Below are positions 782-21,436 of a stretch of 64,000 bases of DNA, piece by piece (the first letter of the stretch is position 1; each line of letters begins with the position of its first letter). A program made the translations under genes and the position numbers. The notes under the pieces are model-generated. The model did no database searches. It was not told where the DNA came from and was given only the letters and a program-made list of their open reading frames with translations. The stretch spans positions 1 through 64,000 of the forward strand of contig NZ_CAMFJF010000012.1 in assembly GCF_945956895.1 (NCBI RefSeq). The letters run 5' to 3'. Source of the DNA: an uncultured Allobosea sp. GTDB lineage: Bacteria; Pseudomonadota; Alphaproteobacteria; Rhizobiales; Beijerinckiaceae.

Positions 782-2013
782 TGTCCGTTCCAGATGCGGG
801 TGTGAAGGGGATTGAAACCGATGCGGTAGGCGAGTTCGGCCGGGCGCTCGATCTCCCAGATCGCGAGATCGCAGCGCTTGCCGGCTTCCAGCGTGCCGAC
901 CTCGTCCTGGAGGCCGAGAGCCTTGGCGGCATGGCGGGTGAGGCCGGCGAGCGCCTCTTCCGGCGTCATGCGGAAGAGCGTGCAGGCCATGTTGAGCACG
1001 AGCAGAGGCGAGGTCAGCGGCGAGGAGCCGGGATTGGCGTCGGTCGCCAGCGCGATCGCGGCGCCATGCTTGCGCATCAATTCGATCGGCGGCTTCTGCG
1101 TCTCGCGCAGGAAATAGAAGGCGCCGGGCAGCACGACCGCGACCGTGCCGGCCTTGGCCATGGCGATGACGCCGTCCTCGTCGAGATATTCGAGATGGTC
1201 GGCCGAGAGCGCGCCCATCTCGGCCGCGAGCTTGGCGCCATGCAGGTTGGACAACTGCTCGGCATGGACCTTGATCGCCAGGCCCTTGGCCTTGGCGGCC
1301 TCGAACACGGCCCTGGTCTCGTCCGGCGAGAAGGCGATGCCCTCGCAGAAGACGTCGACCGCATCGGCCAGCCCCTCGGCCGCGACGGCATCGAGCAACG
1401 GCCCGGCGACGAGCGCGGTGTAGTCGCCCGAGCGGCCCTTGTATTCAGGCGGCACGGCATGGGCGCCGAGGAAGGTGGTGCGCACCGTGACCGGCCGCTC
1501 GCGGCCGATCTGGCGCGCGACGCGCAGCTGCTTCAGCTCTGCCTGCTGCTCCAACCCATAGCCGGACTTGATCTCGACAGTGGTGACGCCCTCGGCCATC
1601 AGCGCGGCGAGGCGCCGGTCGGCGGACGCGAAGAGCGTGTCCTCGCTCGCCTCGCGCGTCGCCTTGACAGTGGAGAGGATGCCGCCGCCGGCTCGCGCGA
1701 TCTCCTCATAGGTCGCGCCCTGCAGGCGCAGTTCGAATTCATGCGCCCGGTCGCCGCCATAGACGAGATGGGTATGGCAATCGATCAAGCCGGGTGTGAT
1801 CCAGCGTCCCGCGCAATCGATGGTCTCGGCAGCCTGGAAGGCAGGCGTCGTGCTGCGTGGGCCGACGAAGATGATGCGCCCGTCACGGGCGGCGATCACG
1901 CCGTCCTCGATCGCGCCATAGGGCGCATCGACCGCAGGCGACATCGTCGCCAAGCGCGCATTCGTCCAGAGCTTGTCGCAGACAAGCGTCTCACCAGGCG
2001 CTTTCGCCACCAT
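778..2013 (-). CDS. hutI: Imidazolonepropionase
   Basis: Third enzyme of histidine degradation: hydrolyses 4-imidazolone-5-propionate to N-formimino-L-glutamate. It is a metal-dependent amidohydrolase of 411 residues, the usual family size, with metal-site motifs [31 protein letters not shown] and ATDANPGSS. The frame is open further upstream to 2067, but that would start translation inside the palindromic operator. The ATG at 2013 has a strong GGGAGG ribosome site six bases ahead and is preferred. It is first in the minus-strand hutI-hutH operon and is divergent from hutF-hutC. Confidence 0.95.
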
Positions 2014-2054
2014 AGGTCCTCCCGCTACTCTTTGAGTTGAAGTCATGCTATCCA

Positions 2055-2095
2055 ATTGCATATGCAAATGGCAAGTGTTATTTGCATATGCAAAT
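2055..2095. promoter_or_regulatory. Tandem palindromic operator, probable HutC binding sites
   Basis: Two copies of TTGCATATGCAA lie at 2056-2067 and 2082-2093, with centres 26 bp apart. The second extends to a perfect 16-bp palindrome, ATTTGCATATGCAAAT (2080-2095). They sit between divergent hutI and hutF. Known GntR/HutC-type repressors bind palindromes in hut promoters; assigning these to the HutC encoded at 3504 is inference from position. A TTG/ATG reading of hutI would start within the first copy, which argues for the later start. Confidence 0.75.
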
Positions 2096-2123
2096 AAGCG
2101 CCAATGACAGACGGAGCGAAACG

Positions 2124-3488
2124 GTGATCGAGACCCTGCATCTGGCCGAGGCGCTTTTGCCCGAAGGCTTTGCCAGCGATGTGAAGCTGACCATTGCCGA
2201 TGGCGCGATTGTCTCCGTCGAGGCAGGGGTGAAACCGGCAGGGGATAAGGGCAACTTCAAGGGCATCGCGCTGCCCGGTATGCCGAACCTGCACAGCCAT
2301 GCCTTCCAGCGCGGCATGGCCGGCCTCTCCGAGCGCCGGGGCGCGCCGGAGGATTCGTTCTGGACCTGGCGCGAGGTGATGTATCGCTTCCTCGACCGGC
2401 TCGATCCCGACGACGTCCAGGCGATCGCGGCGCAGGCCTTCGCCGAGATGCTGGAAGGCGGCTTCACCGCGCTCGCCGAGTTCCACTATCTCCATCACGA
2501 CAAGGACGGGCGCGCCTACGCGAACATCGCGACGATGGGGCAGGCGATCGCCTCCGCCGCGCAGGAAACCGGCCTCGGCCTGACGCTGCTGCCGGTGCTC
2601 TATCGCTTCGGCAATTTCGGGCAGGCGCCCTCGGTCCATGGCCAGCGCCGCTTCGTCAACGAGCGTGACGCCTATCAGCGCCTGCTGGAAGGCAGTGCCG
2701 CCGCGATCCGCGATCTGCCCGATGCACGTCTCGGCGTCGCCCCGCATTCTCTACGCGCCGTCGCGCTCGACGATCTCGGCTGGGTTTCCTCGCTGCGCCC
2801 CAACGACCCCGTCCATATCCATGTCGCCGAGCAGGTGCCGGAGGTCGAGGCCAGCTTGAAGATCACCGGCAAGCGCCCGGTCGAACTGCTGATGGACACG
2901 ATCCCGCTCGACAAGCGCTGGTGCCTGATCCACGCGACGCATCTGAGCGATGCCGAGCGTGACGGCATCGCGCGCAGCGGCGCGGTCGCGGGCCTCTGCC
3001 CGATCACCGAATCCAGCCTCGGCGACGGCATCTTCGACGGTATCCGTTATGCGCAAGCGGGCGGCGCCTATGGCGTCGGCAGCGATTCCAACATCCAGAT
3101 CGATGCCGGTTCCGAGCTGCGCCAGCTCGAATATTCGCAGCGCCTGCGCGACCGCCGCCGCGCGCTCTTCGCGGAGGAAAAGGCCTCGACCGGCCTCGCC
3201 CTCTGGCAGGCGGCTTGCGCCGGCGGCGCCCAAGCCTGCGGCCGCTCCATCGGCGCCATCGCGCCGGGCCATCGCGCCGATTTTATCACGCTCGATATGG
3301 ACCATCCGGCCCTCGTCGGCCGGTCCGGTGCCGAGGCGGTCGACAGCGCGATCTTCGCCGCCAATGCGATGCCTTTGCGCGATGTCGTCGTCGGTGGCAG
3401 GAGGGTGGTGGCCGAGGGGCGGCATCTCGCCCGCGATTCGGTGCGCGCTCGCTTCGCCGGCGTGATGCGGCGCCTGCTCGCAGCGTAG
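2124..3488 (+). CDS. hutF: Formimidoylglutamate deiminase
   Basis: Converts N-formimino-L-glutamate to N-formyl-L-glutamate and ammonia, the five-step histidine route that avoids direct formamide release. It is an amidohydrolase-superfamily protein of 454 residues from a GTG start preceded by GGAG; the frame is open further upstream to 2037, but that extension runs through the operator palindromes. Metal and active-site motifs seen are [25 protein letters not shown] and GSDSNIQ. Having hutF implies that an N-formylglutamate amidohydrolase (HutG) is encoded elsewhere. The next gene, hutC, follows after 15 bp. Confidence 0.93.
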
Positions 3489-10601: not shown

Positions 10602-11480
10602 TCAACCCACCGGAACCACGTCCACGGCGACGCCGACCTTCTGCGTGCCCGGCCCGATCACCACGCCGTCGAGCGGGGCGACATCGGCATAGTCGCGGCC
10701 GAAGGCGGTGACGATATGGTCGTCCGCGACGATCAGGTCGTTGGTCGGGTCGAGCCCGACCCAGCCGATCTCCGGCCCGCACCACAGCATCGCCCAGGCA
10801 TGGCTGGCATCGGCGCCTTCGAGCCGCTTCTGGCCCGGCGGCGGGATGGTGCGGATATAGCCGGAGACATAGGCAGCCGGCAGCCCGAGGCCCCTGAGGC
10901 CAGCGATCATGATATGCGCGAAATCCTGGCAGACGCCGTGGCGCTGGGCGAAGGCCTCGGCCAGCGGCGTCGTCACCTCCGTCGCCTCGGGATCGTAGAC
11001 GAAATCACGCCTGATCCGGGCCATCAGGTCGCAAGCCGCCTCCAGCACCGGCCGGCCGGCATCGAAGCTCGACCGCGCGTAATCGATCACCGCAGGGACA
11101 TGCGGCACGAGCCGGCTGGGATAGAGGTGATGCGCCGGCGAATCCGGCGCGAGACTCCGGGAACCGAGGGCCAGCGCCGCGACATCCTCCCAGTTCCGCG
11201 TCAGTCCGGCATGGGGCGGCGGCGGCCGGTCGACCTCGATCCGCGCCCGCATCTCGAGCTTGAGCTCGCGATGCGGCTTGGTGAGGGTGATCGTAGTCAT
11301 GCGGTTGCCGAAGAAGCAGATGCCGTCATTGCGCTCGGCCGGGCGCGGCGTGATCAGCAATTCGCTCTTGAGCACGCCCTGGCCGCCGCCGTCGCGCGGC
11401 AAAAGCCGCAGGATGCAGCGGGAAAAGGGCACCGGCCGGCTATAGCCGTAGGTGGTGAGGTGGCGCAGCTCGTAGATCAC
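10602..11480 (-). CDS. Transglutaminase-like cysteine peptidase of the ATP-grasp/alpha-E operon
   Basis: A 292-residue protein with an N-terminal Bact_transglu_N-type beta domain (1-90) and a transglutaminase core (about 140-250). The triad is complete: Cys184 (HGVCQDFAH), His227 (SHAWAM), Asp244 (GLDPTND). Such enzymes cleave or form amide bonds. It starts at GTG overlapping the stop of the upstream ATP-grasp gene (GTGA), last of three overlapping genes. In this conserved gene set it probably removes or transfers the group that the ATP-grasp enzyme attaches; the substrate is unknown. Confidence 0.9.
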   Translation of the reverse strand: MIYELRHLTTYGYSRPVPFSRCILRLLPRDGGGQGVLKSELLITPRPAERNDGICFFGNRMTTITLTKPHRELKLEMRARIEVDRPPPPHAGLTRNWEDVAALALGSRSLAPDSPAHHLYPSRLVPHVPAVIDYARSSFDAGRPVLEAACDLMARIRRDFVYDPEATEVTTPLAEAFAQRHGVCQDFAHIMIAGLRGLGLPAAYVSGYIRTIPPPGQKRLEGADASHAWAMLWCGPEIGWVGLDPTNDLIVADDHIVTAFGRDYADVAPLDGVVIGPGTQKVGVAVDVVPVG

Positions 11481-13999
11481 GCGATACCCGTCATCCGCGA
11501 GCTTTCGGGGCCGCTATTCTGCAGGAAGTAGCGGTCTGCGATCGCACCCGAGAGCCCCATCAGCAACTGCTCGAACAGGAGGATGCTGGTCCGGTCGAGC
11601 CGGCTCGCCTCCATCGTCCGGCAATCGGCCGCGAGCCGCAGCACCAGCCGGCGTGGCGCCTCCAGCATGCCGTCATCGGCGAGCGTCGGCAGGTCGGCGA
11701 TCTCGGTGTCGAGACGCTCGACCTGGAAGGCGACGGAGCGTGGGTTGTAGGGGTCGAGCATGACGAGATCGAGCACCGGCTGCAGGCTCGCGCCGAGCAG
11801 GTAGCGCGAGCGATAGGTGATCTGCGAATCCGTCAGGTCGAGCAAGGCGTCCAGTGTGTCGCCGGAGGCGTTGCTGTCGGCGAATTGCCGGGCGAAGCGG
11901 CAGGTCGCGATGCCGCGTTCCAGCCGCCGGCCGATATCGAGGAAGCGCCAGCCATTGCCGCGCACCATGTTCTCCTGGCCGAGGCCGGAAAAGGCGGCGA
12001 GCGATTTCAGTGCCCGGTCGGCGATCTCATAGGCTTCGCCCTCGCTCGGCTTGCGGCCTTCCTCGGGGTCGAGCTGGTGCTGCAGGTCGCTGAACAGCCG
12101 CCAGGCATCGACCGAAAGGCGCTCGCGGATGACAGAAGCGGTGCGCCGAGCTTCACGGAGCGACGCAGCGGCGGAGCCATAATCGTCGAGGCTGTAGAGC
12201 GCGGCATAGGCCTGTGCGGCCGGCGTCCGCTTCTCCTGTCCGCCGGGGGCGGCGCCCCAGGCGACGAGCATGCCGGCGAGCTGGCGCACGGTGTCGTTGC
12301 GCCCGGGCGCCGGATCCGGGTCGATCAGGCGGCCGAGCAGGGCACGTACCAGGCGCAGGATCGCCTCGCCGCGCTCCAGATAGCGCCCGAGCCAGAACAG
12401 GTTGTCGGCCGCCCGGCTCGGCAGCGTGCCGGTGACGCGGCGGATGCTGATGCGGTCCGGCGTCGGCAGCAGGCTGACCTGCGCGACCGGCTCCTCCGAG
12501 GTGACCCAGACATCGCTGGAGCGCACGCCGTTGCGCATGCTGACCGCCCGCGCATCGGGCTCGTCGGAGATGCGGCAGAAGCCGCCGGGCATCACCTTCC
12601 AGCCATCCGGCGTCGCGGCCGCGAAGACGCGCAGCGTCATCGGATGGGGTTCGAGCCGGCCGTTCTGGAAGACCGGCGTGGTCGAGAGCCTGACGACCTC
12701 CTGCCCGACATAGTCCATGCCGCGTGCCTCGATGTGTTCCCGCAGGGCCGAGCGCTCGGCCTCGGGCAATTCCGCGGCAACAACCTGCATCTTGTCGATG
12801 CCATTGCCGGCGCCACGAAAAGCCGGCGCGATGCTCATCTCGCCGAGCCGGTCGAGCACGACCTGCCGCTCCCGCGGCTGGCCGCACCACCAGGTCGCGA
12901 TATTCGGCAGGATCAGGTCCTGTCCGAGCAATTGCCGGGCAAGCGCCGGCAGGAAGCCCATCAGGGCGCGTGCCTCGACGACGCCGGAGCCGAGCCCGTT
13001 GGCGACATGGACTTGCCCCTGCCGGACGGCCTCGACCAAACCGGCGACGCCGAGGGCCGAGCCGGAATTGAGTTCCAGCGGATCGGCGAAATCGCCGTCG
13101 ATGCGACGCCAGATCACATCGGCGCGCTTCAGGCCGGCGATGGTGCGGACATGCACCCGGCCGTCGCGCATCAGCAGGTCGCCGCCCTCCACCAGCAGGA
13201 AGCCCAGATAGCGCGCGAGATAGGCTTGCTCGAAATAGCTTTCGTTGAGCGGGCCGGGCGTCAGCAACGCGATGCGCGGTTCGGCCCGCTTCGAGCGCGC
13301 GACCAGTCCGGCCCGGAAGCTCTGGAAGAAGGCGGCCAGCCGCTCGATGTTCATGTTGCGGAACATGTCGGGGAAGGCACGCGCCAGCGCCAGCCGGTTC
13401 TCCAGCGCGTAGCCGGTGCCGGATGGCGCCTGCGTCCGGTCCTGCAGCACCCACCAGCGCCCGTCCGGGCCGCGGCCGAGATCGGCGGCATAAAGCTGCA
13501 ACGTCCCGCCGCCCGCAATGCCATGCAGCGGGCGCAGGTAATCGGGGCTGCCGGTGACGACGGCCGCCGGCAGGTGGCCCTCCGCGATCAGCTCGCCGGG
13601 CCCGTAGATATCGTCCAGCACGGTCGAGAGCAGTTCGGCGCGCTGCGTCACGCCCGCCGCGATCGCCCGCCATTCCGCCTCGGGAATGACGAGGGGGACA
13701 TGCGAGAGCGGCCAGGCCCGTTCGCCGACGCCGGGGTCGCGCTCGTCGATATCGCCATGGACGCGATAGGAGACACCGGTATCGCGGACATGCCGGTCGG
13801 CCAGCCCGAAGCGCTGCGTCAACTCCGAGGGCGACAGCGCACACCATCCCGACAGGAAGGGCTCCCAATGCGGGCGCACATTCCCATTCTCATCGATGAA
13901 CTCGTCGAAGACGCCCGGCAATGGGCGATAGCCGGCGAGCAGCGATGCGCGCCGCTCGGCCCTGCTGCGTCCCGATCGGATGCGGCCCTGCACCGGCAT
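11477..13999 (-). CDS. Circularly permuted ATP-grasp / alpha-E fusion protein
   Basis: A fusion of two proteins often encoded separately. The N-terminal ~470 residues match the circularly permuted ATP-grasp family (COG2308), e.g. LPNIATWWCGQPRERQ and the LQDRTQAPSGTGYALENR region; the C-terminal part, from about residue 520 (NLFWLGRYLERGEAILR), is the all-helical alpha-E domain (COG2307). ATP-grasp enzymes of this type are predicted peptide or amide ligases. It is the middle gene of the operon: the frame starts by a TTG overlapping the upstream stop, with an ATG at 13999 given here as start. The ligation substrate is unknown. Confidence 0.9.
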   Translation of the reverse strand: MPVQGRIRSGRSRAERRASLLAGYRPLPGVFDEFIDENGNVRPHWEPFLSGWCALSPSELTQRFGLADRHVRDTGVSYRVHGDIDERDPGVGERAWPLSHVPLVIPEAEWRAIAAGVTQRAELLSTVLDDIYGPGELIAEGHLPAAVVTGSPDYLRPLHGIAGGGTLQLYAADLGRGPDGRWWVLQDRTQAPSGTGYALENRLALARAFPDMFRNMNIERLAAFFQSFRAGLVARSKRAEPRIALLTPGPLNESYFEQAYLARYLGFLLVEGGDLLMRDGRVHVRTIAGLKRADVIWRRIDGDFADPLELNSGSALGVAGLVEAVRQGQVHVANGLGSGVVEARALMGFLPALARQLLGQDLILPNIATWWCGQPRERQVVLDRLGEMSIAPAFRGAGNGIDKMQVVAAELPEAERSALREHIEARGMDYVGQEVVRLSTTPVFQNGRLEPHPMTLRVFAAATPDGWKVMPGGFCRISDEPDARAVSMRNGVRSSDVWVTSEEPVAQVSLLPTPDRISIRRVTGTLPSRAADNLFWLGRYLERGEAILRLVRALLGRLIDPDPAPGRNDTVRQLAGMLVAWGAAPGGQEKRTPAAQAYAALYSLDDYGSAAASLREARRTASVIRERLSVDAWRLFSDLQHQLDPEEGRKPSEGEAYEIADRALKSLAAFSGLGQENMVRGNGWRFLDIGRRLERGIATCRFARQFADSNASGDTLDALLDLTDSQITYRSRYLLGASLQPVLDLVMLDPYNPRSVAFQVERLDTEIADLPTLADDGMLEAPRRLVLRLAADCRTMEASRLDRTSILLFEQLLMGLSGAIADRYFLQNSGPESSRMTGIA

Positions 14000-14007
14000 T
14001 CTTCGCG

Positions 14008-17000
14008 TCAAATCCCTGTCGGGCGCCTCAGATCCAGCGTGAGCGGGAATTCGGCGCTGCGTTCCTCCGGCGGAATCGCCAGAGGCCCGGGACTATGACC
14101 GATCGCCTCGAAACGCGCGAGCCGTCTTGCCTCCGCCTCGTAGGAATTGACCGGGGGAGTCTCGTAATTGCGCCCCCCGGGATGGGCGACATGATAGACG
14201 CAACCGCCGAGCGAGCGGCCGGACCAGAGATCGACGATATCGAAGGTCAGGGGCGCATGGACAGGGATCGTCGGGTGCAGGCCCGAGGCCGGCTGCCAGG
14301 CTTTGAAGCGCACCGCTGCGACCGCCTCGCCGGACGTGCCGGTCGCGGTCATCGGTAGGCGGCGGCCATTGCAGGTGACGAGATGGCGGCCCGGCACCAG
14401 CCCGGTCACCTTGACCTGCAAGCGCTCGATCGAGGAATCGACATAGCGCACGGTGCCGCCGATCGCGCCTTCCTCGCCCATGACATGCCAGGGTTCGAGC
14501 GCCTGCCGGATCTCGATTTCCACGCCGCCATGCGTGACCTTCCCGAAGAAGGGGAAGCGGAACTCGGCCTGCGCTTCGAACCAGACCGGATCGAAGGCAT
14601 AGCCGGCGCGCTGGAGGTCGCCGAGCACTTGCCTGAAATCCTGCCAGACCATCTCCGGCAGCATGAAGCGGTCATGCAGGGCGGTGCCCCACCGGACGAG
14701 CTTGCCGTCCAGCGGCTCGCGCCAGAACCAGGCGATCAGCGCCCGCAGCAGCAATTGCTGGGCGAGCGACATCCGCGCATCCGGCGGCATCTCGAAGCCG
14801 CGGAACTCGACGAGCCCGAGCCGGCCCGTCGGTCCGTCCGGCGAATAGAGCTTGTCGATGCAGATCTCGGCGCGGTGCGTGTTGCCGGAAACGTCGACCA
14901 GAAGGTTGCGGAACAGCCGGTCGACCAGCCAGAGCGGGATTGGCGCCTCGCCGGGTTTCGGCACCTGCGCCAGCGCGATCTCCAGCTCGTAGAGCTGATC
15001 CTGCCGGGCCTCGTCGATGCGCGGCGCCTGGCTGGTCGGTCCGATGAACAGGCCGGAGAACAGGTAGGACAGCGACGGGTGCCGGTTCCAGTAGAGGATG
15101 ATGCTCTTCAAGAGGTCCGGCCGGCGCAGGAAGGGCGAGTCGGCCGGGGTCACGCCGCCGAGCACAACATGATTGCCGCCGCCGGTCCCGGTATGGCGGC
15201 CGTCGACCATGAATTTCTCGGCGCAAAGCCGCGCCAGCCGCGCCTCCTCGTAGACGCCTTGCGTGATCGCAGCCGCCTCGCGCCAGTCCGTCGCCGGGTG
15301 GATATTGACCTCGATCACGCCGGGATCGGGCGTGACCTTGATCACGTCGAGCCGCGGGTCGAAGGGCGGCGCATAGCCCTCGATATGCACGGGCTGGCCG
15401 AGCTCCTCCGCCACGGTTTCGACTGAGGCGACGAGATCGAGATAATCCTCCAATCGTTCGACCGGCGGCAGGAAGACGCAGAGCACATTGTCGCGGATTT
15501 CGAGGCTGAGCGCGGTGCGGACATGATCGCCGCCGATCTCCTGCTCGCGCCGGTCCTGGACCGGCCCCAATGCGGCGGATGCCCCGATGCTCATCTGCGC
15601 CGGGCCGGGCCGCTCCTCCGTCGAGGCCGGCTCGGCCGGACGCGCTTCGGGATGATCGGTCCAGCTCGCTCCGGCCGGCCCGGCAGCCGCCAAAGGCGGG
15701 CGCGGCTCCATCGGGTCCTGCGGATGGATATGCGGATATTCGGCCTTGGGCACGACCGGCAGCGAACCCAGCGGCAAGCGGTAGCCGACCGGCGAGTCGC
15801 CCGGCACGAGGAAGAGCTTGCCGCGGCGTAGCTTCCATTTCTCCGAGCGCCAGCGGCGGTCGCTCGCACCGGCCTGCCAGCGCTGCACCGGGATGACATA
15901 GCCGCGCGGATTGCCAAGGCCGAGCTCGAAGACGCGCGCCATCCGCGAGCGCTCCTCCGGGTCGGAGAGGCGCGAATCGAGCGGGTCGACATTGTCGGGA
16001 AGCTGCGCTTCCTTGAGCAGCCAGACGCCGGTATCCTCATAGGCCGGCACGACATAATCGGCGCCGAGCCCGAGCTTTTTGGAGAGTCCCTGCGCCAAGG
16101 CCTCGGCGTCGCGGATGGTGGCGCTGATCTCCAGTTCGCGATCGCCGCCGGTCCGGGCCTCCGGCTCGCGGGCGATGAGATCGGCATTGCGCCAGATCGG
16201 TTCGCCGTCGCGGCGCCAGTACAGGGCGAAGGCCCAGCGCGGCAGGGTTTCGCCCGGATACCATTTGCCCTGGCCGTAATGCAGCATCCCGCCCGGCGCG
16301 AAGCGCTGGCGCAGCCGCCGGATCAGCGTGTCGGCGCGCTGGCGCTTGGTCGGGCCGACCGCGGCGATATTCCATTCCGCGCCGGTCTGGTCGTCGATCG
16401 AGACGAAGGTCGGCTCGCCGCCCATGGTGAGGCGGACATCCTGCGCCTTGAGATCGGCCTCGACCTTGTCGCCGAGGGCATCGAGCTCGGCCCAGGAGGC
16501 ATCGGAGAAGGGCAGGGTGATGCGCGGCACCTCATGCACGCGCGTCACGCTCATCTGGAAGTCGAAATTCGTCTCGGCATAGCTCGCGACGCCCGAGACC
16601 GGCGCGGCCGAGCGATAATGCGCCGTCGCCGCCAGCGGCAGATGGCCCTCGCCGGTGAGAAGGCCCGAGGTCGGATCGAGCCCGACCCAGCCGGCGCCGG
16701 GGATGTAGACCTCGGCCCAGGCATGCAGGTCGGTGAAGTCCTTGTCGGTCCCGCGCGGGCCTTCGAGCGGATCGATATCAGCCTTCATCTGGATCAGGTA
16801 GCCGGAGACGAAGCGCGCGGCGAGGCCGAGATGCCGGAGCGCCTGGACCAGGAGCCAGCTCGTGTCGCGGCAGGAGCCCGAGCCGATCGACAGCGTATGC
16901 TCCGGCCCCTGCACGCCGGGCTCCATGCGGATGCCATAGGCGATGCGCTGCTGCAGCCGTGCGTTGAGGTCGACGATGAAGGTGACGGTGTTCAGCGGCT

Positions 17001-17409
17001 CGCGCGGCAGCTCGGCGAGAAAGGCCGACAGTAGCGGCCCGGCTGGCTCCTTCACCAGATAGGGCGCGAGCTCCTCGATCTGCTCGGGGGTATAGGCGAA
17101 GGGGAAGGTCTCGGCCTGTGTCTCCACGAAGAAGTCGAAGGGGTTGATGATCGACAATTCGGTGACGACGTCGACCTCGATCCGGAATTCCATGACGGGT
17201 TCGGGGAAGACGTAGCGCGCCAGCCAGTTGCCGGCCGGATCCTGCTGCCAGTTCACGAAATGCTGCGCCGGCGTCACCTTCAGCGAGTAGCTCTCGATTC
17301 CGGCCCGGCAATGCGGCGCCGGCCGCAGGCGCACGATCTGCGGCCCGAGCGTGACCGGCCGGTCGTAGCGATAATGCGTGACGTGGTTCAGTGCGGCGAT
17401 GATGGCCAA
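14008..17409 (-). CDS. Transglutaminase / DUF2126 protein
   Basis: A large 1133-residue protein. Residues 1-300 are a transglutaminase with a complete triad Cys180 ([10 protein letters not shown]), His229 (DLHAWAEVY) and Asp245 (GLDPTSG). From about 300 to the end is the DUF2126 region (COG4196), with [14 protein letters not shown] at its start and [13 protein letters not shown] in the middle, reminiscent of glutamine-synthetase-like ligases. The TTG start has a strong AGGGGG site seven bases upstream. It is the first gene of the three-gene operon, whose ends overlap by 4 bp. No signal peptide is seen, so it is cytoplasmic. Confidence 0.92.
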
Positions 17410-17654
17410 GCTTCGCCCCCTAGTCCGCAGCGGTAACCGCCTGCAACGTCAGGTTAGCGGCGCGGCCGGCATGCGCAAGGCGCCGTTATGGTCTCAATGG
17501 CGCCGGGAAGAGGCTCGCTGCTCAAGAGATGTGCAAAATGCCTTGCTCCGCCCGCTCCATCGCCGTTGGTCGACTGGACAGCCAAGGCCGAGTGGTTGCA
17601 GATAGCGCCCAACGGGCGGCTAGCGCCCGCGAAACACGAACGATGGGGAAATCG

Positions 17655-19247
17655 ATGCGTCACGTAGCCAAGTTGATGGCGGTTTCGGCCTTTGCGGCCC
17701 TGATGTCGAGCACCGCCGCCTTCGCGCAGACGCCGAAGGACACGGTCGTGATGGCCAAGCAGATCGACGATATCATCACGCTCGATCCGGCCGAGGCCTT
17801 CGAGTTTTCCGGCGTCGAGGTCGGCGCGAACGTCTACGACAAGCTGATCAACGTCGATATCGCGAACAACAACGCGCTGGTCCCGGATCTCGCTGAGAGC
17901 TGGAGCGTCGGCCCCGACGGCCTGACCTACACCTTCAAGCTGCGCAAGGGCGTCAAGTTCCACTCCGGCAACCCGGTGACGGCGGCCGACGTGGTCTATT
18001 CCTTCCAGCGCGCCGTCACCCTCAACAAGTCGCCCGGCTTCATCCTGCGCCAGTTCGGCTTCGTCGCCGAGAACGTGCTCGACAAGGTCAAGGCGGTCGA
18101 CGAGAACACCGTCCAGATCACCGTCTCGAAGCCCTACGCCCCGACCTTCTTCTATAACTGCCTGACCTCCGGTGTCGCTGCGATCGTCGACTCGAAGCTG
18201 GTCAAGGCCAATGAGAAGGACGGCGACTGGGGCAATGGCTGGCTGAAGCTGAACTCGGCCGGCTCCGGCGCCTACAAGGTCCGCAGCTACCGTCCGAACG
18301 AGCAGTACACGCTCGAGGCCAACGAGGCCTGGTACAAGGGTGCGCCGAAGAGCAAGCGTATCGTCGTGCGCCATGTCGCCGAGCCGGCCTCGCAGCGCCT
18401 CCTCGTCGAAAAGGGTGACGTCGACATCGCCCGCAACCTCTCCAAGGACCAGCTTGAGGCCGTCAAGAAAAACGACGCGATCAAGATCGTCCAGGGCGAC
18501 AAGGGCTACATCCTCTATCTCGGCCTGAACCAGAAGAACCCGAACCTCGCGAAGCCCGAGGTCCGCGAGGCGCTGAAGCTCCTGGTCGATTACGGCTCGA
18601 TCGAGAAGAACATCCTCGAGGGCACCTACAAGCACCATGAGTCGTTCCTGCCGCAAGGCTTCCTCGGCGCGATCTCGGACAAGCCCTACCAGCTCAACGT
18701 CGCCAAGGCGAAGGAGCTGCTCGCCAAGGCCGGCCTCAGCAACGGCTTCACCGTGACCATGGACACCCGCTCGATCTCCCCGATCACGGACATAGCGCAG
18801 GCGATCCAGGCGACCTGGGCTCAGGCCGGCGTCAAGCTGGAGATCATCCCCGGCGACGGCAAGCAGACCCTGACCAAGTACCGCGCCCGCACCCACGACA
18901 TCTATATCGGCCAGTGGGGCCCGGACTATCTCGACCCGCACACCAATGCCGAGACCTTCGCCATCAACGAGGACAATGGCGAGGAGGCGAAGTCGAAGAC
19001 GCTGGCCTGGCGCAATGCCTGGAACATCCCGGACATGACCAAGGTCACCCAGAGCGCCGTGCTGGAATCCGACGCCAACAAGCGCAAGACCACTTATGAG
19101 GCTCTGCAGCGCGAGCACCAGAAGGTCTCGCCCTTCGTCATCATGTTCCAGCAGATCGAGGTCTCGGCCGAGCACAAGAACGTGAACGGCTGGGTCATCG
19201 GACCGAGCTCCGACACCAACCGCTACGCCACCATCGTCAAGAACTGA
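17655..19247 (+). CDS. Peptide/nickel-type ABC transporter substrate-binding protein
   Basis: A periplasmic solute receptor (SBP family 5, DppA/OppA-like) of about 530 residues. The signal peptide MRHVAKLMAVSAFAALMSSTAAFAQ is followed by the mature domain with LDPAEAFEFSGVEVGANVYDKL and DLAESWSVGPDGLTYTFKLRKGVKFHSG (cited only in part here). The second ATG (17655) has the GGGGA site; the first, at 17643, is possible. It heads a five-gene importer. The substrate is probably a di- or oligopeptide, unproven. The 245-bp upstream gap against the divergent DUF2126 gene should contain its promoter. Confidence 0.9.
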   Translation: MRHVAKLMAVSAFAALMSSTAAFAQTPKDTVVMAKQIDDIITLDPAEAFEFSGVEVGANVYDKLINVDIANNNALVPDLAESWSVGPDGLTYTFKLRKGVKFHSGNPVTAADVVYSFQRAVTLNKSPGFILRQFGFVAENVLDKVKAVDENTVQITVSKPYAPTFFYNCLTSGVAAIVDSKLVKANEKDGDWGNGWLKLNSAGSGAYKVRSYRPNEQYTLEANEAWYKGAPKSKRIVVRHVAEPASQRLLVEKGDVDIARNLSKDQLEAVKKNDAIKIVQGDKGYILYLGLNQKNPNLAKPEVREALKLLVDYGSIEKNILEGTYKHHESFLPQGFLGAISDKPYQLNVAKAKELLAKAGLSNGFTVTMDTRSISPITDIAQAIQATWAQAGVKLEIIPGDGKQTLTKYRARTHDIYIGQWGPDYLDPHTNAETFAINEDNGEEAKSKTLAWRNAWNIPDMTKVTQSAVLESDANKRKTTYEALQREHQKVSPFVIMFQQIEVSAEHKNVNGWVIGPSSDTNRYATIVKN

Positions 19248-19263
19248 GGCTTTTGCCTCAAGC

Positions 19264-19298
19264 GCCCGCCACGGCCATCAAGCCATGGCGGGCTTCCC
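19264..19298 (+). terminator. Hairpin between receptor and permease genes
   Basis: GCCCGCCA and TGGCGGGC (19264-19271, 19286-19293) pair, and the stem continues inward past one mismatch (GGC/GCC); TTCCCTTATT follows. The tail is weak, so it may be a leaky terminator or an mRNA-stabilising hairpin that favours the receptor. Confidence 0.6.
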
Positions 19299-19313
19299 TT
19301 ATTCGGACAGGCC

Positions 19314-19407
19314 GTCATTCCGGGCTTGACCCGGAATCTATCGTAGAGCGCAGCGCCTTATGATGGATTCCGGATCGGCGCCGCTATCGCGGCTTGTCCG
19401 GAATGAC
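19314..19407. repeat. Palindromic intergenic repeat, family C copy 1
   Basis: Begins GTCATTCCGGGCTTGACCC and ends CGGCTTGTCCGGAATGAC: complementary outer arms around an AT-richer centre. It lies between the receptor and permease genes of the importer. It shares the GTCATnCCGG outer arms with the copies at 29436, 33606, 44756, 46254 and 49057. Confidence 0.85.
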
Positions 19408-19455
19408 GCAAGATTGGTCCGCCTGAGCATCAGGCCATTGAAACGGAGGCGGGTC

Positions 19456-20520
19456 ATGACAGCCGTGACGCAAGCTCCCCCCAGCAAGGCGGCTTCGCCG
19501 GGAAGGCTCGGCCGCTGGAGCCGCGCGCTTTCGCGCGAATTGACGACCGTGGTCATCACCATGTTCGGCCTGCTGTTGGTCACCTTCTTCATCGCCCGCG
19601 TCATCCCGATCGACCCGGTGCTCGCCGTCGTCGGCGACAACGCCAAGCCCGAGACCTATGAGGCGGCGCGCATCGAGCTTGGCCTCGACAAGCCGCTCTG
19701 GCAGCAATTCGCCATCTATATCGGCAAGGTCTTCACCGGGAATCTCGGCACCTCCGTGCTGACCTCGAACCCCGTCGTCGAAGACATCAAGCGCGTCTTC
19801 CCGGCGACGCTGGAGCTCGCGACGCTCGGCACGCTGATCGGCGTGCTCATCGGCGTGCCGCTCGGCATCCTCGCCGCCGTCAATCAGGGCCGCTGGCAGG
19901 ATCAGGTCGCCCGCGTCGTCGGCCTCGTCGGCTATTCCGTCCCGGTCTTCTGGATCGGCCTGATGGCGCTGCTGCTGTTCTACGCCAAGCTCGGCTGGGT
20001 CTCTGGTCCCGGCCGCATCTCGGTCGTCTGGCAGGACATCGTCACCACGCGCACCGGCGTCATCATGATCGACGCCGCGCTGGAGGGCGAATGGGAGGCG
20101 TTCTGGGACGCTTTCTCGCACCTGATCCTGCCGGCCCTGGTGCTCGGCCTGCTCTCGGTCGCCTATATCAGCCGCATGACGCGCAGCTTCATGATCACAG
20201 AGCTGCAGCAGCAATATGTCATCGCCGCCCGCGTGAAAGGCGTCTCCGAGACCGCCGTGATCTGGCGCCACGCGTTGCGCAACGCCGCCGTGCCGCTCTT
20301 CACCGTGATAGCGCTCTCCTACATGCATCTGCTGGAGGGCTCGGTGCTGACCGAGACGATCTTCGCCTGGCCGGGCCTCGGCCGCTATCTTACCAACGCG
20401 CTGCTCAACGCCGACATGAACGCCGTGCTCGGCGGCACGCTGGTGGTCGGCGTCGTCTTCATCGGGGTCAATCTCCTGACCGACATCATCGGCCGCCTGG
20501 CCGATCCGCGCGTGCGCTGA
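19456..20520 (+). CDS. ABC transporter permease, DppB/OppB type
   Basis: An inner-membrane permease of 354 residues with about six transmembrane helices. The N-terminus has the typical ITMFGLLLVTFFIARVIPIDP helix, and the EAA loop, which docks on the ATPases, is at VIAARVKGVSETAVIWRHALRNA (residues about 255-277, quoted in part elsewhere). ATG with ACGGAGGCGGG. It is separated from the receptor gene by 208 bp holding a hairpin and a repeat. It is 10 bp from the second permease. Confidence 0.92.
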   Translation: MTAVTQAPPSKAASPGRLGRWSRALSRELTTVVITMFGLLLVTFFIARVIPIDPVLAVVGDNAKPETYEAARIELGLDKPLWQQFAIYIGKVFTGNLGTSVLTSNPVVEDIKRVFPATLELATLGTLIGVLIGVPLGILAAVNQGRWQDQVARVVGLVGYSVPVFWIGLMALLLFYAKLGWVSGPGRISVVWQDIVTTRTGVIMIDAALEGEWEAFWDAFSHLILPALVLGLLSVAYISRMTRSFMITELQQQYVIAARVKGVSETAVIWRHALRNAAVPLFTVIALSYMHLLEGSVLTETIFAWPGLGRYLTNALLNADMNAVLGGTLVVGVVFIGVNLLTDIIGRLADPRVR

Positions 20521-20530
20521 GGAGGCGGAC

Positions 20531-21436
20531 ATGAGCGATACCTCCTCTCCCGGCCTGCATGCCTGGCTGATCAGCGACTCGCCGGAATCGCGCCGACAGG
20601 CCCGTCTCGGCCAGCTCTACCGGCAATGGCTCGCCTTCAAGCGCAACCCGATGGCGGTGGCGGGCCTCGCCATCATCGTCCTGCTGCTGCTGATCGCCGC
20701 CTTCGCGCCGGTGATCGCGCCCTTCGATCCGATCGCGCAGGCGCTCGACAAGCGGCTCCTGCCGCCCTCGGCGACCAACTGGTTCGGCACCGACGCGCTC
20801 GGCCGCGACATCTTCAGCCGCATCGTCTACGGCACGCGGATCACGCTGGTCATCGTGCTGCTGGTGGTCGTCACCGTCGGCCCCTTCGGCCTGCTGATCG
20901 GCGCGATCTCCGGCTATTACGGCGGCTGGGTCGACCGTCTGCTGATGCGCATCACCGACGTCTTCCTGGCCTTCCCGCGCCTCGTTTTGGCGCTGGCCTT
21001 CGTCGCGGCTCTCGGACCCGGCATCGTCAACGCCATCATCGCCATCGCGATCACGACCTGGCCGCCTTATGCCCGCGTCGCCCGCGCCGAGACGATGGTG
21101 ATCCGCAACCAGGACTATATCGCCGCGATGCGCCTGCAGGGCGCTTCTCAGGCCCGCATCATCTGGAAGCATGTCGTGCCGATGTGCATGTCCTCGCTGA
21201 TCGTGCGCACCACCTTCGACATGGCCGGCATCATCCTGACGGCCGCCGGCCTCGGCTTCCTCGGCCTCGGCGCGCAGCCGCCCATGCCGGAATGGGGCGC
21301 GATGATCTCGGCCGGCCGCGAGCAGATCTTCGACCAGTGGTGGGTCGCGACCTTCCCCGGCGTCGCGATCTGCATCGTCGCGCTCGGCTTCAACCTGCTC
21401 GGCGACGGGCTCCGCGACGTCATGGATGCGAGGTAA
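20531..21436 (+). CDS. ABC transporter permease, DppC/OppC type
   Basis: The second importer permease, 301 residues. It has the N-terminal OppC_N segment (WLAFKRNPMAVAGLAIIVLL), the NWFGTDALGRDIFSRIVYGTR signature of DppC proteins, five or six membrane helices and an EAA loop in IAAMRLQGASQARIIWKHV. ATG with GGAGGCGGAC. Pairs with the DppB-type subunit to form the pore. Confidence 0.92.
   Translation: MSDTSSPGLHAWLISDSPESRRQARLGQLYRQWLAFKRNPMAVAGLAIIVLLLLIAAFAPVIAPFDPIAQALDKRLLPPSATNWFGTDALGRDIFSRIVYGTRITLVIVLLVVVTVGPFGLLIGAISGYYGGWVDRLLMRITDVFLAFPRLVLALAFVAALGPGIVNAIIAIAITTWPPYARVARAETMVIRNQDYIAAMRLQGASQARIIWKHVVPMCMSSLIVRTTFDMAGIILTAAGLGFLGLGAQPPMPEWGAMISAGREQIFDQWWVATFPGVAICIVALGFNLLGDGLRDVMDAR

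Follow-up and report, generated by a model that had tools for sequence, protein, structure and literature searches.

The operon studied here occupies positions 10,602 to 17,409 of a 64,000-nucleotide stretch of contig NZ_CAMFJF010000012.1 from an uncultured Allobosea sp. (this whole stretch is called the window). Its three genes encode a transglutaminase (TG)-DUF2126 protein, an ATP-grasp domain fused to an Alpha-E domain and a second TG-type protein, and probably constitute the accessory module of a two-locus, nitrogen-linked, reversible amide system. The ligase of the operon is probably DUF2126, as suggested by its predicted fold and motifs, and the fused ATP-grasp looks dead. Operons of this kind are already known, their function being unproven; what is new here is a conserved, probably dead ATP-grasp residing in a ligase/amidase module and probably depending on an intact twin encoded elsewhere. 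The reading as a whole, in which the operon is the DUF2126 module of an ATP-grasp/Alpha-E/TG/Anbu reversible amide system with a non-catalytic gene 2, is one to which we lend about equal belief and doubt.

The three open reading frames (ORFs), all on the minus strand, lie at 14008-17409 (gene 1, 1133 amino acids, bifunctional by prediction), 11477-14011 (gene 2, 844 amino acids) and 10602-11480 (gene 3, 292 amino acids), with a 4-bp overlap between each pair of neighbors, as had been described in an earlier, sequence-only reading of this DNA. The families which that reading had named (TG, DUF2126, ATP-grasp and Alpha-E) agree with the Pfam assignments, all of which exceed the curated cut-offs: PF08379, PF01841 and DUF2126 (PF09899, 1339.8 bits) for gene 1, CP_ATPgrasp_2 (471.9 bits) and Alpha-E (233.4 bits) for gene 2, and PF08379 (78.2) and PF01841 (60.9) for gene 3. 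A search of NCBIfam at E 0.001 returned zero matches for the three proteins. The related loci analyzed are the best 80 of at least 593 confirmed matches and hence close relatives; 68 of them carry all three genes in the same order and on the same strand, which argues that the arrangement is not due to chance, while six of the other 12 run into a contig end and six have more than 3 kb downstream but are without both partners. The closest of the 80 are from a Hyphomicrobiales metagenome-assembled genome (84%) and Bosea sp. Tri-44 (81%), as measured on the best segments, and 11 aligned relatives of gene 1 share 57-68% identity with the window protein.

The circularly permuted ATP-grasp domain of gene 2 (residues 106-481, 12569..13696) is predicted to be catalytically dead, carrying Q190, R192 and A395 at the positions where stand-alone ATP-grasps have E, N and K. 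The motifs concerned are the Glu and Asn of LEDN, with VLQDR (residues 188-192, 13436..13450) in place of the stand-alone VLEDN, and the Lys of the VVKEVxGSGGYGM loop, which is degenerate in the window protein (approximately residues 393-409, IAPAFRGAGNGI..., 12785..12835). Each of the 103 stand-alone rows, which include one gene of G091 two times (loci L049 and L177), has all three residues, versus none of 88 fused rows, comprising 69 called fused by script and 19 of 122 “separate” rows that were recognized as fused ORFs. Among the 69, 60 keep none of the tested residues, five keep only the Lys, one only the Glu and three only the two tested loop glycines, the first of which also differs in 10 of the 103 stand-alone domains. 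Misalignment of the two forms is unlikely, because a profile-profile alignment of 11 stand-alone and 11 fused domains covers the full length (E 5.8e-94), and the solved stand-alone relative 3n6x retains the E, N and K motifs. Many residues of the fused domain are conserved at 90% or more, which argues against its being decaying debris. Similar D..ExN and KP..R.G patterns can be recognized by eye in E. coli GspS, YgiC and YjfC. The loss of the predicted Mg-ATP residues suggests that gene 2 would most likely be a non-catalytic partner or scaffold, presumably for an intact stand-alone ATP-grasp and Alpha-E pair encoded elsewhere. The earlier view of this domain as the amide ligase of the operon is thus not upheld, DUF2126 being the likelier ligase; the loss of metal and ATP residues, which the sequence-only reading had named as counting against its prediction, is seen in the sequence alignments and not by structural modelling.

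The Alpha-E domain that follows (residues 530-829, 11525..12424) is predicted to be all-helical (model at a mean predicted local distance difference test, pLDDT, of 90.2), and its Glu-Arg motifs are retained in both forms (40 fused, 109 separate). A comparison of the model with the PDB gave zero matches at E 0.001; the best match, to the NasR antiterminator (4akk; E 0.088, template modelling (TM) score 0.31), was too weak to use and was set aside as a fold assignment, although it is curious beside the nitrogen link described below. A fused-type ATP-grasp ORF of 864 amino acids was also encountered in G057 (C2:704068-705204), a genome in which DUF2126 gave no match and the Anbu operon has no TG.

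The distribution of the families across genomes bears on whether the operon could act by itself. DUF2126 is present in 21 of 142 genomes of the class and 120 of 398 of the phylum, and Anbu in 35 and 145, respectively, the latter having been searched with one protein as query, so that distant Anbu may be missed. The two occur together in 14 class and 76 phylum genomes, with Anbu in 76 of the 120 phylum genomes that have DUF2126 versus 69 of the 278 that do not (Fisher p 1e-5 for the class and 6e-13 for the phylum, kinship ignored), and they stand side by side in nine of 136 Anbu loci. These loci cover 107 of the 145 phylum genomes, 38 same-genus repeats having been dropped by hand, and 36 of 38 class matches, two weak ones (G075 and the second of G014) being left out. 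Of 50 DUF2126 genomes negative for Anbu, 48 have a stand-alone-type ATP-grasp, called by score and ORF length and not residue by residue, the two misses being 84% and 74% complete; so do 23 of 24 further DUF2126 genomes, where the sole miss is the source genome with its contig end. In control searches, Synechococcus elongatus gave matches to DUF2126, Alpha-E and ATP-grasp. Length decides the type here because fused ORFs reach 529 bits. DUF2126 can do without a detectable Anbu but is almost always accompanied by a stand-alone-type ATP-grasp. The distance between this ATP-grasp and DUF2126 is less than 10 kb in 25 of the 48 Anbu-negative genomes and in eight of 18 DUF2126 genomes with an “orphan” Anbu. 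The converse fails, as 54 Anbu operons with a TG sit in genomes without DUF2126. The idea that an orphan Anbu marks the loss of the rest was rejected: 25 of the 26 orphan loci in searched genomes retain a stand-alone-type ATP-grasp elsewhere (of the 28 orphan loci, those in G082 and G128 fall outside, and each of these genomes also has an Anbu operon), and in G226, which has Anbu, no CP_ATPgrasp_2 match was found. Compact clusters that hold Anbu, TG-DUF2126, the fused ATP-grasp/Alpha-E, a TG and separate ATP-grasp and Alpha-E genes together were also observed (L253, L258, L266 and L251).

These distributions have to be set against the model of the sequence-only reading, in which the operon is a self-standing peptide-tagging system with the ATP-grasp as active ligase and the TGs as transferase and protease. 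This model follows a prediction by Iyer, Aravind and colleagues that indeed exists, as known from the papers citing it (PMC5666114, PMC6376114 and PMC3597751), it agrees with the Pfam family membership, and the stand-alone ATP-grasp of Yersinia has been reported to free phosphate from ATP (PMC6376114). The fused ATP-grasps, however, are without the E, N and K common to all stand-alone ones examined, and the operon is probably not self-standing because 71 of the 74 DUF2126 genomes searched also have a stand-alone-type ATP-grasp, all of which renders this model improbable. In the searched literature the fused ATP-grasp is nowhere called inactive and no substrate or product is named, in agreement with the earlier description of the product as uncharacterized; the 2009 prediction paper may already say part of this.

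The assignment of the ligase role to DUF2126 (residues 278-1128 of gene 1, 14026..16578) relies on its predicted structure and motifs. The PF09899 match spans profile positions 3-826 of 826, and an AlphaFold2 model (mean pLDDT 75.8) resembles, with moderate confidence, the glutamine-synthetase (GS) fold, with GS-fold ligases ranking at the top of a Foldseek search of the PDB. The top types are a YbdK-type protein (1tt4), glutamine synthetases and gamma-glutamylmethylamide synthetases, with Foldseek probabilities of 0.99 for 1tt4, 0.97 for the glutamine synthetases 11zs and 9n4x, and 0.94 for 4hpp and 5dm3. An hhalign comparison with E. coli PuuA pairs DPGVIEVN and GTGGGNH of DUF2126 with SPGQFEIN and GSGMH (E 0.0085, probability only 4.7%). 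The candidate site residues, picked by us from conservation and GS-like motifs, namely E332, E700, N702, N746, H747, H845, R846, E848, R863, E868, R870 and E873, are invariant in 45 of 45 sequences. The sequence-only reading had listed DUF2126 as a domain and nothing further; its presence stands, and its part is probably larger, that of the likelier ligase. Its placement in the carboxylate-amine ligase superfamily was proposed earlier (PMC2588565) for Rv2566 of M. tuberculosis, a TG-DUF2126 protein that is likened here by description and not by alignment.

The same fold assignment can be read in favor of a different product, a small gamma-glutamyl-type metabolite, e.g. an amino-acid or polyamine amide, which would be made and broken for nitrogen storage or salvage with no protein being tagged. 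This possibility, which we regard as clearly the lesser one, is favored by the closest solved folds being glutamine synthetases and gamma-glutamyl-amine ligases, by the weak PuuA motif match, by the links of relatives to NtrC and nitrogen limitation in the articles cited below, and by the finding of no widely conserved neighbor (64 loci, ORFs of at least 120 amino acids clustered). Two TGs, an Alpha-E and a pseudo-ligase, however, presumably exceed the needs of known gamma-glutamyl pathways, and the link to Anbu points to a peptide as the substrate. Pupylation, with its PafA ligase and Dop, shares the logic of a GS-fold ligase, Dop (5lrt) being the 31st Foldseek hit with a probability of 0.16; the window differs in having TG enzymes in the place of Dop.

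Both TG-type enzymes of the operon, the N-terminal part of gene 1 (approximately residues 1-270, 16600..17409) and gene 3, have the complete triads that had been noted before, C180/H229/D245 and C184/H227/D244, respectively. The C-H-D triad is present in 99 of 99 TG-DUF2126 relatives and in 80 of 83 small-TG relatives, with the three exceptions comprising two truncated sequences and one (L033) having Cys at the Asp column, where an Asp sits two residues before that column, a real change and not an alignment shift. It could be argued that the small TG does no more than cleave proteins, like Rv2569c, its presumed mycobacterial relative, which we take to be a member of this gene set. One study described Rv2569c as a serine protease that degrades casein and E-cadherin and is sensitive to phenylmethylsulfonyl fluoride (PMSF) and 4-(2-aminoethyl)benzenesulfonyl fluoride (AEBSF); its reported insensitivity to E-64 and N-ethylmaleimide does not fit a cysteine enzyme (PMC11081392). 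Given the triad in 80 of the 83 family members, and with the ligase domains left unexplained, we consider this explanation very improbable. The conserved domain of Rv2569c itself suggested a cysteine enzyme, contrary to the reported serine-protease inhibitor profile (PMC11081392).

As had been stated, Anbu is not adjacent to the operon; the genome search that had been proposed for it located it on another contig (C139, locus L006, 3953 bp), where the genes for Alpha-E, TG and Anbu follow one another, the first two confirmed by Pfam. The product of the Anbu gene (1299-2204, minus strand) aligns with Anbu chains of solved structure at E 4.7e-72 and better (5nyj, 4.7e-72), and the match to 5nyj starts at residue 54, which is the Thr after a possible GTG start (Thr1). 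Pfam PF00227 gives this protein no score, although the solved chains match it at E below 1e-57, so that Pfam-only searches would miss such an Anbu; the one PF00227 match in the genome is HslV by its position next to HslU, as judged by eye. The TG of this second set (2104-2931, minus strand) has Ala at the slot of the catalytic Cys, and the contig terminates 26 bp upstream of Alpha-E. In a genome of the same genus (G507), a stand-alone ATP-grasp adjoins the Anbu set, and Pro occupies the same TG slot. The next gene downstream of Anbu, at 2-1213 on the minus strand, encodes a GGDEF (diguanylate cyclase) protein and is truncated by the contig end. The second set is thus of the kind known as the Anbu operon (PP_2685-2688 of P. 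putida, and Y. bercovieri), with its ATP-grasp either beyond the contig end or missing. That operon has the same ATP-grasp, Alpha-E and TG families as the window, whereas the window is without Anbu, adds DUF2126, and has the ATP-grasp fused to Alpha-E with its site residues lost.

The loss of the TG cysteine recurs. Among Anbu operons that have a TG, it is seen in five of 33 from DUF2126 genomes versus none of 54 from the others (raw Fisher p 0.0064), the residues at the slot being A, P, G, Y and P; when missing TGs are counted too, the numbers are 10 of 38 versus two of 56 (p 0.0028). The Cys is retained in the other 28 of the 33, parsimony on the tree requires only four losses, and independent-pair tests against DUF2126 did not reach 0.05, with too few informative pairs. 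The association is therefore suggestive, a lead that loses significance when relatedness is taken into account. Its restriction to DUF2126 genomes is in line with the module supplying TG activity in trans.

The link to nitrogen comes from relatives. In B. cenocepacia, I35_5080-5083 of the NtrC regulon combine DUF404/DUF407, DUF403, TG and “large” TG proteins in one nitrogen-controlled cluster, for which the values given for an ntrC mutant range from -6.0 to -9.4 (PMC5491218); to judge from its description, the large protein would contain DUF2126. DUF404/407 and DUF403 are separate proteins there and fused in the window, so the ATP-grasp of that cluster is probably intact. In P. putida, the genes for Anbu and the ATP-grasp of its set are up on nitrate versus ammonium (log2 4.44 and 3.99; PMC8050072), and under nitrogen limitation the TG, the gene in the place of Alpha-E and the ATP-grasp gene of the wild type are up 11- to 15-fold (PMC7801951). 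An RpoN-like site has been listed for a CP_ATPgrasp_1 gene of Bradyrhizobium (PMC13207237). As for the related loci, a sigma-54 score of at least 12 occurs in eight of 72, no excess over 20 base-composition shuffles (1-8), and one of at least 11 in 33 of 72, a small excess over the shuffles (18-31), with Pseudomonas kielensis (L132) at 13 of 14.5. A looser pattern, counted over the whole window and both strands (91 observed, 66.9 expected), is uninformative because it is over-represented on both strands.

In the mechanism that we favor, gene 1 would be two-headed: its GS-fold, ATP-dependent carboxylate-amine ligase would make an amide, as the model and motifs suggest, and its TG-fold cysteine amidase or transferase would act on the same kind of bond, with gene 3 as a second such cysteine enzyme. 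GS-fold ligases usually activate the gamma-carboxyl of glutamate, and the amide would probably be formed at this group. The system would then form an amide-linked adduct and take it off again, probably when nitrogen is limiting, to judge from the relatives. A more elaborate form of this scheme, which we put forward tentatively, is that of a conserved pseudo-ligase, in which the fused non-catalytic twin joins the intact ATP-grasp/Alpha-E pair to the GS-fold ligase and TG in a two-ligase conjugation cascade, the halves of which are often at separate loci.

It has to be noted that several observations weigh against the favored mechanism. The metal- and ATP-holding role of the lost E, N and K positions is presumed by us; a stand-alone profile aligned with GspS, YgiC and YjfC over the D..ExN stretch only (E 0.057, probability 1%) and gave nothing useful with GspS alone. 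The DUF2126 model has 111 residues with pLDDT below 50, its Foldseek search returned zero matches at E 0.001 (best 0.0038), and the TM-scores on the query are 0.13-0.17 among the top ten; a sequence-profile search of the PDB with DUF2126 found no GS, and hhalign with YbdK left the motifs unaligned (E 0.29). An intact or second ATP-grasp is absent from the searched assembly, although C139 stops just upstream of Alpha-E, and the region upstream of the operon in the window has no clear sigma-54/NtrC site, the best score being 10.5 of 14.5. In wild-type P. putida under nitrogen limitation, Anbu barely rose (1.12; PMC7801951) while its neighbors were up 11- to 15-fold, and pull-downs with the proteins of the Yersinia Anbu set gave no specific interaction (PMC6376114).

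The surroundings of the operon offered no further partner. Among the ORFs clustered from the 64 loci of more than 15 kb, no non-core family occurs in more than 16 loci, apart from frames presumed to be antisense to the core, which occur in 28. Divergent from the operon, at 17529-21436 on the plus strand of the window, lies a dipeptide/nickel-type ABC transporter with a binding protein (SBP_bac_5) and two permeases, which was dropped as a functional partner, not being a conserved neighbor in the 64 loci. In four loci, additional genes separate DUF2126 from the fused gene; these were dropped likewise, being a RoxA-like cytochrome in L033 and a histidine kinase in L046 by Pfam, and judged by eye in L039 and L045.

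The DUF2126 family is widespread in the phylum, at 120 of the 398 genomes sampled, and its function has been predicted since 2009, with no test found in the searched literature. The reading of DUF2126 as the ligase, next to a dead ATP-grasp half, shows which protein to assay. If true, a nitrogen-controlled reversible amide system would constitute a new level at which bacteria control nitrogen or proteins.

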